A DNA stretch of 64,000 bases from Acidobacteriota bacterium (GTDB taxonomy: Bacteria; Acidobacteriota; Terriglobia; UBA7540). Positions 56,921-59,210 of this stretch are shown in pieces. The DNA lies in the NCBI GenBank assembly GCA_021838785.1, contig JAKCCV010000015.1, positions 1 to 64,000 of the forward strand. The letters run 5' to 3'. The notes beneath the pieces are model-generated. The model made no database searches and had not been told where the DNA came from. It worked only from the letters and a program-made list of their open reading frames with translations. A program made the translations under genes and the position numbers. Each line of letters starts with the position of its first letter. Within the stretch, counting starts at the first letter, position 1.

Positions 56921-57187
56921 GTGCCAAAGTTACACAAGCGCGCTGCCAAGAGCCGTCGGCGATTGATCAAGAACCCCGTCAATCCGGCCGAAGGCCCTCC
57001 ATTGCCTCTTCCTCAGTCGCGCAGGATTACGGAGGTTCCCGGCGTCGAGGCCGTGCTCGATCGAGCAAGGACTCCCTACAGAAAGAATCCCCTGAGAGAA
57101 GATGAGGCGCTCAATTTGGTGTGCGATGCGCGCGAGGATGAGCGGCATTTCCCGCTCAAGAAGCTGCTCAAGAAATTTGAACAATGA
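56921..57187 (+). CDS. putative antitoxin of a RelE/ParE-type pair
   Basis: An 88-residue basic protein from GTG 56921, with Pro-rich middle and a charged C-terminal helix (FPLKKLLKKFEQ). Its stop overlaps the start of a RelE/ParE-like toxin gene as ATGA (57184-57187), the layout usual for antitoxin-toxin pairs. No DNA-binding motif is obvious, so the antitoxin class is unknown. Confidence 0.55.
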   Translation: MPKLHKRAAKSRRRLIKNPVNPAEGPPLPLPQSRRITEVPGVEAVLDRARTPYRKNPLREDEALNLVCDAREDERHFPLKKLLKKFEQ

Positions 57188-57436
57188 ACTGGGCGGTCAG
57201 GTATCGCTCGTCCGTCGAGAAAGACATGGCGCGCTCCCTGTCCCGCATTCGCGCGGAAATCCTTGACCGGCTCCGCTCTCTGGAGGCTGATCCCTTCCCC
57301 GCCGGCTGCAAGAAACTCAAAGGGCAGAAAAATCGGTTCAGGCTGAAAGTGGCCGGCGATTACGGCGTCGCAAGAAGAGTGCGTCGTGGCCGTCGAATTC
57401 GTCGGCCACAGAAAGGGTGCGTACCGCTGGTTTTAA
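57184..57436 (+). pseudogene. RelE/ParE-like toxin with frameshift
   Basis: The start reads MNWAVRYRSSVEKDMARSLS then LEADPFPAGCKKLKGQKNRF and RLKVAGDY, the fold pattern of RelE/ParE toxins. Near 57362 the frame slips: the expected C-terminal strands continue in the next frame as EECVVAVEFVGHRKGAYRWF with a stop at 57434-57436. One inserted or lost base would disable the toxin while leaving the antitoxin-like gene. The unshifted frame runs on to 57660 without family features. Confidence 0.75.
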
Positions 57437-57521
57437 TAGCTCAGGGTCCCCCGTGGCCAAGGTCTGCGCCGATCTGTGGCCGAATTCGGCTCCTGGGTAC
57501 CCGGCTGCCGGCTGCCCAGTA

Positions 57522-58436
57522 TCAAAAGGGGATATCGTCGTCGGAGATGTCTCCCTCGGCCCCTTTAGGTTCCGCAGCGGGAGGGGCCTCCCTTGCCAGC
57601 TTCTGTTCGATGAGGAACGAATTGACCGCGGCCGCAAGGTTCACGGCGAGGGCTGCATAGGATCTCGGGACGGTCACTACCTCGCTCCCTTGACCGTGCC
57701 CAGCTAATTTGTTTCTGAGCACGGCAGGGGCCATAAGGAGACCTTTTTGTATGGCAGTCGCACGGTCCTCGGGCACGTCATCAAGATACCCGGCCTCTTG
57801 AAACTCCCCGAGCAACTCGGCAGCCGTACCTGTGCTGGCGTTCAGGATAGTTTTGAGCGTGCTCTCGACGCTCTTGGCTGCGGCCTGAATGGAGTCTTTG
57901 GCTCGATTATCGGCAAGCGCCTCCTGGGCTTCGCGCAACTCGTCCTGCGCGCCCTTGAAGCCGTGGTCGCGGAATTGCCGTCTCACGCTCTCGAGCAGTT
58001 CGGCGAAGAACTGCCCGTCAACAAGGAAGAAAGTTCCGTCCGACATCCTCCATGCGCAGTCGAACGCCAGCATAGCGGCATTGATGTCCCTCTGAAACGG
58101 GCCCCGCGAGTTCTCCTCTAGCCCCTCGAAGAACTGCTCGATTACATCAAACGCGTTGGAGGGATAGCCTCTCGTGCAGTACGCTTCAATGCCTTCCATC
58201 ACTCCCTCCGACGTCTTGGCCGTCAGTCTGGATACGCCAAGCAACTCCTTAAGCCTACGCTCAGCTCGTTCTAAGGAATCCGTGAAGTAGTTACATCCCG
58301 TTTCGGTTCTTTCAAACGAACTCGAGTTGTACCTTTGGATCGTCTTCCACAGTCTCTCCATGAGCTCCCGAGTCAGGGACACGGTTATCTGCCTATCGAT
58401 TAGCGCCTTTCTATGCCTGAGGCTAAACGGTTCCAT
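57522..58436 (-). CDS. abortive-infection-like protein with SSB-type C-terminal tail
   Basis: A 304-residue protein. The C-terminal domain (about 165-280: KDSIQAAAKSVESTLKTIL, RNKLAGHGQG, YAALAVNLAAAVNSFL) resembles the Abi-C domain found in AbiJ and related phage-resistance proteins. The N-terminal half (SLRHRKALIDRQITVSL to FALLESV-type region, about 1-155) resembles the N-terminal part of STM4504/CBY_0614-type proteins. The very end, GDISDDDIPF, matches the conserved acidic tail of bacterial single-stranded DNA-binding protein (DDDIPF). It sits between two toxin-antitoxin units, fitting a defence islet. Confidence 0.7.
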   Translation of the reverse strand: MEPFSLRHRKALIDRQITVSLTRELMERLWKTIQRYNSSSFERTETGCNYFTDSLERAERRLKELLGVSRLTAKTSEGVMEGIEAYCTRGYPSNAFDVIEQFFEGLEENSRGPFQRDINAAMLAFDCAWRMSDGTFFLVDGQFFAELLESVRRQFRDHGFKGAQDELREAQEALADNRAKDSIQAAAKSVESTLKTILNASTGTAAELLGEFQEAGYLDDVPEDRATAIQKGLLMAPAVLRNKLAGHGQGSEVVTVPRSYAALAVNLAAAVNSFLIEQKLAREAPPAAEPKGAEGDISDDDIPF

Positions 58437-58566: not shown

Positions 58567-58959
58567 CTACATATTGGCGGGCTGATAGAAGGCGAGGCCC
58601 TTCATGGGGTAGTGCCGGCGGTTACGAGTCCATAGCTCTACGTTGTGTATGACGACCGTGGCTGCAATCAGCGCATCCCCAAGCTCAACCCGATGACTTT
58701 TGGAGAAGATTCTCAGAAATTCTCCGGCCTTTTCGCCAATCTCAGCGTCAATAGGGATCGTAATCATAGCCTGGAAAAGGTTACGGAGGACAGCATACTC
58801 ATTCGGGCGTGCGCCATGCCAAAGCTCAGCCATGCTGATTGGCGAGCACAGGACGGCCGCTTCGCCCCGGCTCAACTCGTTCCACTCCGCGACGATAGGC
58901 CGATTGCGCGCCCTGGAAACCTCGATGAGGATATCGGAATCAACCAGGACAGCCTTCAA
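58567..58959 (-). CDS. vapC: VapC-type PIN ribonuclease toxin
   Basis: A 130-residue PIN-domain toxin cutting RNA. Conserved acidic residues lie in VLVDSDILIEVS, MAELWHG and ELGDALIAATVV, and the C-terminus TRNRRHYPMKGL is typical. It follows its antitoxin gene with a 4-bp ATGA overlap. Length matches VapC. Confidence 0.9.
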   Translation of the reverse strand: MKAVLVDSDILIEVSRARNRPIVAEWNELSRGEAAVLCSPISMAELWHGARPNEYAVLRNLFQAMITIPIDAEIGEKAGEFLRIFSKSHRVELGDALIAATVVIHNVELWTRNRRHYPMKGLAFYQPANM

Positions 58960-59210
58960 GACACGATCCTCTTTAACCGTCTTCCTCTGCGGAGCTTGCG
59001 GACATAAGTCTCAGCGCTTGGCAAGTCTTTGCGGTCCTTCCAAGTCCCGACCCAAGCTGCCATGGCCTGTGACCGGTTCGCCACTGAAGTTACATACTTC
59101 TCGCGCACTGCCTGACGAACCAGCTCGGATACGGATACGCCCAGTTGACGGGAACGTACCTCGAGAGATTTCCACGTTTTTTCGTCGAGATAAAGTTGGG
59201 TGCGCTTCAT
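58956..59210 (-). CDS. vapB: VapB-type ribbon-helix-helix antitoxin
   Basis: An 84-residue protein with an N-terminal RHH DNA-binding motif (RTQLYLDEKTWKSLEVRS, VSELVRQAVREKY) and a charged C-terminal tail that would block the PIN toxin encoded next (ATGA overlap). The pair should repress its own promoter, probably in 59211-59244. Confidence 0.88.
   Translation of the reverse strand: MKRTQLYLDEKTWKSLEVRSRQLGVSVSELVRQAVREKYVTSVANRSQAMAAWVGTWKDRKDLPSAETYVRKLRRGRRLKRIVS

Follow-up and report, generated by a model that had tools for sequence, protein, structure and literature searches.

An SSB-like C-terminal tip on a predicted AbiJ_NTD4-HEPN ribonuclease and its relatives

The 64,000-nucleotide stretch of acidobacterial DNA analysed here (the window) contains a gene for what is, by its architecture, a predicted HEPN RNase and AbiJ_NTD4-type abortive-infection (Abi) protein. 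Its C-terminal tail is real, rare, and nearly identical to the tip of the host's own single-stranded-DNA-binding protein (SSB), by which it probably plugs itself into the replication and repair machinery. This SSB-mimic tip appears to mark a subfamily of the known AbiJ_NTD4-HEPN proteins for which no description was found within the open-licence literature.

Domain composition of the window protein

The genome to which the window belongs (G000) measures 3.4 Mb and is 98% complete, and the gene itself is complete (Table 1). The ORF has 304 codons and an ATG start, and it ends ...KGAEGDISDDDIPF-stop (GDISDDDIPF), the SSB-like tail to which the first-pass annotation had drawn attention. The body had been likened there to Abi-C/AbiJ-type proteins, and Pfam agreed: DUF7014 (PF22809) matched with 31.1 bits, above its cut-off of 27, AbiJ_NTD4 (PF18863; 32.0 bits, E 2.1e-7, cut-off 34) fell just short of its own, and Abi_C (18.3 bits, cut-off 24) scored below. 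The AbiJ_NTD4 cut-off was exceeded in relatives (L033, 45.8 bits; L037, 43.1; L011, 38.8). The PADLOC candidate PDC-S32 matched the window protein with an E value of 5.8e-12, and the NCBIfam entry STM4504/CBY_0614 (NF046078) scored 52.7 bits, below its cut-off of 150. The Pfam scan found no OB-fold SSB domain (PF00436) in the window protein, the only SSB domain in its own genome being at C17, and an SSB gene or SSB fragment was therefore ruled out as its identity.

An AlphaFold2 model based on 19 aligned sequences had a mean pLDDT of 85, with residues 291-304 below 50; the body was predicted to be folded and the tip disordered and free. The AbiJ_NTD4 domain folded alone reached a pLDDT of 89.7. 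Foldseek ranked no solved relative of this domain and the best VIA-align Z score was 4.0, so that no sensor fold was recognisable. The predicted structure of residues 156-283 was the helical bundle of HEPN proteins, with VIA-align matches to 1ufb (Z 12.8, rmsd 3.0, 115 aligned), 3o10 (12.1), 2hsb (11.9) and 1o3u (11.7), and with HEPN toxins and Csm6 also high in the list. No convincing match was obtained in a viral structure library, and a PDB sequence search returned no relative. The HEPN RNase motif is Rx4-6H with a polar residue after the R, and an acidic Ex3[KR] motif lies upstream (PMC3710099); the window protein carries both, as R241-N242-...-H247 and E191-S-T-L-K195.

Table 1. Features of the abortive-infection gene in the window
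Feature	Position	Strand	Basis
Complete gene, 304 aa: AbiJ_NTD4, HEPN, linker, SSB-like tip	57522..58436	-	ORF, Pfam, full-length homologues
AbiJ_NTD4 domain, residues 3-149, alpha+beta	57990..58430	-	Pfam PF18863, AlphaFold2, fold searches
Predicted HEPN domain, residues 156-283, DUF7014/Abi_C region	57588..57971	-	VIA-align, DUF7014 match
HEPN active-site motif R241-N-K-L-A-G-H247 (Rx5H)	57696..57716	-	RN...H motif conservation
Disordered linker, residues 284-298, P/E-rich	57543..57587	-	pLDDT, alignment
SSB-Ct-like tip DDDIPF, residues 299-304, extreme C-terminus	57525..57542	-	Sequence, 16 aligned tails

The tip in homologues and in host SSB proteins

In bacterial genome maintenance the last six residues of SSB serve as the chief address label, and in E. 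coli at least 17 proteins have been described as docking on this tip (SSB-Ct). The single SSB gene of the host (G000 C17:105818-106129) encodes a product ending ...PEPGITDDDIPF (GITDDDIPF). A comparison with the host's own ssb C-terminus, as the first-pass annotation had proposed, found seven of the last eight residues identical, the other pair being S/T. The window protein thus ends in acidic residues followed by I/L/V-P-F at the chain end (DDDIPF-stop), an ending conserved in its clade. The pattern [DE][DE]-aliphatic-P-F-stop occurred three times in the 3.4-Mb genome, in SSB, the window gene and a 186-aa zinc-finger-like protein, and the reversed control pattern did not occur; a looser tip pattern gained only one further protein end. 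Since the tip is conserved in homologues with bodies about 30% identical, the likeness goes beyond chance. The window gene showed no sign of having recently taken up the 3' end of the host ssb, as the two coding ends share only 31/60 bases. The Halanaerobium Abi and ssb coding ends shared 45/60 bases, a figure that A/T-rich acidic codons could inflate.

The searches for relatives made no use of the tail and drew on the phylum, plasmids, genome contigs (two body patterns), viral contigs and HMM searches, the last covering the Mesorhizobium order, the class Alphaproteobacteria, the Halanaerobium phylum and the Geothrix family. Single-protein scans of the genome and viral contigs gave no close relatives, an alignment being needed to find them, and the viral contigs yielded only tail-less sister proteins. 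The tBLASTn search of plasmids with a tail-only peptide had no match, a result without weight, as the query was Halanaerobium-like with arbitrary leading residues. A body-only profile divided the relatives by a wide gap: 18 distinct full-length proteins scored 317-454 bits, and 44 more distant relatives, truncated ones excluded, scored below 180 bits and were of the STM4504/CBY_0614 type and others. In the body, relatives from Acidobacteriota, Alphaproteobacteria and Halanaerobium were 28-35% identical to the window protein.

An acidic-[ILV]-P-F tip was present in 15/18 full-length clade members, from three phyla, and in 0/44 of the more distant relatives, most of which stop within 16 residues past the last HEPN helix. 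The first-pass annotation had held that close homologues lacking the tip would make it accidental; with the close homologues checked for loss, the tip proved conserved. The three full-length exceptions, all with an intact HEPN motif, had no tail (L010) or ended DDAALF (L029) or DDPPDEEI (L038), so the family does not strictly require the tip. Two of three truncated gene remnants (L022 and L040) keep an intact tip, and the third (L024) is one change off (DDDNPF).

Acidobacteriota tips were DDDIPF in the window, DEDIPF in Geothrix and DNDIPF in one acidobacterial genome. Three Mesorhizobium proteins ended ADEIPF, TDEIPF and TEEIPF, and DDDIPF was found in Mesorhizobium helmanticense, Mesorhizobium N.Ca, Methylobacterium and Proteobacteria BEIJ2. 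The remaining tips were DEELPF (HGW-Alphaproteobacteria), HDELPF (Magnetospirillum), DDDLPF (Chelativorans), DDEVPF (Acetobacteraceae) and DFDVPF (Halanaerobium). Across 16 aligned tails, P, F and [ILV] were each present in 16/16, and D or E was found in 16/16 at -4, 14/16 at -5 and 13/16 at -6. The 20 residues before the tip had no conserved letter in these tails, only a P/E bias, and among homologues the linker varied in both length and sequence. Judged from the alignment, a conserved end behind a diverged linker has the look of a short linear motif that selection maintains on a free linker. The RN...H motif was kept in all 17 tip-bearing sequences listed, and the clade relatives without it (L012, L013 and L014) were also without the tip.

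For comparison across hosts, SSB genes were drawn from the same genomes as the Abi homologues. Most Alphaproteobacteria had an SSB with DDEIPF or DDDIPF and an Abi protein with a similar tip. The informative case is Halanaerobium congolense, whose SSB has an unusual tip: SSB ends FDADDFDVPF and the Abi protein FNEEDFDVPF, and a pattern search of that genome found DFDVPF-stop only in the SSB and Abi genes. Permutation of the pairing in 15 genomes, scored as identity over the last 10 residues, gave p = 0.0008, or p = 0.009 without Halanaerobium; the test treats the genomes as independent and the Mesorhizobium ones are related, so these values are suggestive and short of conclusive. The pairing signal is carried largely by one lineage. 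The sequences are thus suggestive of an Abi tip that follows the host's own SSB tip.

Similar endings were observed on other proteins. The 186-aa zinc-finger-like protein (L006/L109, G000 C9:164542, minus strand) ends EVSDDDIPF and adjoins an AAA_25 and HTH gene; it is possibly a mobile-element replication protein with its own SSB tip. An unrelated protein with a 224-codon open frame (L137, G443 C146:8430-11500, minus strand) ends GGSPDWNAPKGGDLDDEIPF, nearly the same as the SSB end of its own genome (L126, GGSPSWDAPKGGDLDDEIPF), with 50/60 coding bases identical, and looks like a case of an ssb 3' end captured by another gene. Two paralogues of unknown family in the same genome (L138 and L139, G443 C151 and C207) end PEDNDIPF and PEDNDVPF, so that SSB-like tips occur on several accessory proteins within one genome. 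In the genome of the Abi homologue L011, some 5 kb away from it, a 113-codon open frame (L142/L122, G403 C12:241489, minus strand) ends PGPDDDIPF; this short protein presumably resembles DUF736 plasmid proteins.

Phylogeny and genomic surroundings

The body tree was built by a quick method from 39 rows with the tails removed. The tip-bearing clade split from its STM4504-type sisters with full SH-aLRT support, and the tip label required 4 changes on the tree compared with 11.7 in shuffles; because of long branches (L011 and L013), the number of tip gains and losses is uncertain. Relatives were found in 1/77 Geothrix-family genomes and in few of 347 Mesorhizobium-order genomes, a sporadic distribution that fits horizontal movement.

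Two pairs of toxin-antitoxin-like genes adjoin the window gene; the region otherwise holds housekeeping genes and is not a classical defence island. Directly upstream of it, Pfam identified a PIN-domain toxin with a ribbon-helix-helix antitoxin (VapBC-like; 58567-59210, minus strand). Facing it on the plus strand (56921-57660) are a small ORF and then a RelE-like toxin ORF, the latter apparently frameshifted near 57360-57380, where by eye the expected end ...VVAVEFVGHRKGAYRWF runs on in another frame.

Among the homologues, L026 has Type ISP restriction and Mrr nuclease genes as neighbours, L025 an AAA_13/AbiEii-like ATPase, L037 both a PD-(D/E)XK nuclease and an integrase, L036 an integrase, L024 Shedu and Tn3, and L032 (Chelativorans) an S8 peptidase with a second AbiJ_NTD4 protein; relatives also occur on mobile elements. 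At the Chelativorans locus a tip-less AbiJ_NTD4 protein (L032:2195-3010, plus strand) lies directly upstream of the tip-bearing one. No recurring partner gene was found, and among 177 ORFs around 15 homologues the SSB-like tip was confined to the Abi genes. A conserved two-gene system was ruled out, as the flanking genes vary between loci. PADLOC PDC-S32 matched 17/17 aligned clade members.

Proposed function and relation to known systems

The reading that we favour, and consider reasonably probable, is that of a single-gene Abi effector: an HEPN RNase whose SSB-Ct mimic docks on SSB-binding replication, repair or phage proteins. AbiJ_NTD4 would be its regulatory domain, HEPN its ribonuclease, and the C-terminal tip the mimic of the host SSB-Ct. 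Held on a flexible linker, the tip would enter the pocket by which SSB-interacting proteins, one or several, receive SSB-Ct, candidate host partners being RecO, PriA, RecQ, RecG, ExoI, DnaG and similar proteins; alternatively, the partners would be recombination or replication proteins of phages with this same type of pocket. Such docking would wire the RNase to sites of DNA replication and repair. The tip could then act as a tether or a bait: should a phage flood the SSB partners, occupy them or displace them, or supply SSB-tip-binding proteins of its own, the HEPN dimer would change state, leading to RNA cleavage and a halted cell. Against this reading stand the clade members with an intact HEPN motif that lack a proper tip, the housekeeping surroundings of the window gene, and the result that no partner gene recurs.

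The known behaviour of SSB-Ct suggests that the tip would dock. RecG binds the SSB tip itself and not the linker (PMC10164576), and the tail can be moved to another protein, since an SSB tail fused to PriB stimulates PriA (PMC8509808). Pocket binding, as opposed to a generic acidic tail, is favoured by the invariant P-F and by the match to host SSB. Abi reverse transcriptases target phage annealing proteins (PMC3710099), and AbpAB, Retron-Eco8, Hachiman, ShosTA, Nhi and Hna are triggered by phage SSB or the SSB-ssDNA complex (PMC10732053); together these make phage replication and recombination complexes a plausible trigger. The choice of partner, the direction of the switch and the anti-phage activity are proposed with low confidence, and a defence role of the relatives is suggested by context, namely defence neighbours and the PADLOC PDC-S32 matches. 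As a more tentative extension, which we consider possible rather than probable, the abortive-infection RNase may be an 'integrated decoy', with the SSB docking peptide as a bait that is renewed to match each host's SSB. It would be switched on by phage proteins that take over SSB-Ct pockets or attach to the SSB tails of the host, or by collapse of the SSB interactome.

Localisation only, which we think unlikely, would mean that the tip brings an RNase regulated elsewhere to replication forks, where primers or nascent transcripts are cut at the phage replication factory and AbiJ_NTD4 does the sensing. AbiJ N-terminal domains have been proposed to contact phage components, with HEPN as the killer (PMC3710099), and NTD4 is also conserved in the tail-less sister family, so sensing need not use the tip; by itself, however, localisation leaves it unexplained that one clade only acquired the tip. 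The near-identity of the tip to the host SSB tip is also what a competitor of SSB would require, and a protein of that kind could poison the cell as it builds up, putting repair or the restart of replication out of action whether or not the RNase takes part. Poisoning is nevertheless very unlikely: the RNase motif is present in every tip-bearing protein, and against SSB, which is abundant and tetrameric, a protein of low copy number with one weak tip would compete poorly.

An acidic tail could also mask a basic RNase site, much as the acidic tail of SSB itself probably competes with nucleic acid, and the tip might thus fold onto the protein's own RNA-binding surface or AbiJ_NTD4 and be freed on activation. 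We hold such self-inhibition to be highly improbable, since a purely internal electrostatic role needs neither an invariant P and F nor tracking of the host SSB sequence, and residues 291-304 are unplaced in the predicted structure. Lastly, the tip could have been captured once from an ssb gene and have been without function since, and other genes do appear to take up ssb 3' ends (L137). Such hitch-hiking deserves hardly any credence, as the linker has diverged past alignment while the last six residues remain, P and F in 16/16, and the tip persists across bodies of about 30% identity in three phyla; an accidental tip was rejected on the conservation in the 16 aligned tails.

With the AbiJ-NTD4 and HEPN family (PMC3710099; PF18863, PF14355/PF22809) the window clade shares its domain order, HEPN RNase motif, sporadic distribution, and restriction-modification and mobile neighbours; as described, however, that family has no SSB-like tip, and SSB is absent from the text of PMC3710099. 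The STM4504/CBY_0614 proteins (NF046078) have a homologous body, to which 17/17 window-clade proteins match weakly (E <= 0.001), but these sisters stop just after the last helix and none has the tip. In the window protein the match to the PDC-S32 profile goes no further than residue 218, well short of the tail, and no published mechanism for PDC-S32 was found in the open-licence literature. The STM4504/CBY_0614 family is common on enterobacterial plasmids. Bacterial SSB, like the window protein, has a disordered linker and the same acidic, hydrophobic C-terminal tip (SSB-Ct DDDIPF), whereas the window protein has an HEPN RNase domain and no OB fold. The phage-SSB-triggered systems likewise tie single-stranded-DNA protein biology to abortive defence (PMC10732053), but they respond to phage SSB, whereas the window protein itself imitates the host SSB tip.

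The first-pass annotation knew of no described system of this kind, and our searches agreed: no SSB-like tip on an Abi protein, and nothing on AbiJ together with SSB, on DUF7014 or on PDC-S32, was found in open-licence papers, the only ones covered, so that an unseen description is possible. Its overall interpretation, of an Abi protein that could sense or poison replication and repair proteins or respond when a phage disturbs SSB partners, stands in part and is widened to a conserved SSB-Ct-like tip on an AbiJ_NTD4-HEPN subfamily.

We know of no trigger for AbiJ-type systems. For their N-terminal domains, a sensing role was predicted in 2013 (PMC3710099). If true, a defence RNase with an SSB label would connect an Abi effector physically and directly to the hub of replication and repair. 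How AbiJ-type systems time their activation can be tested simply through the tip, for which one or two C-terminal residue changes suffice.
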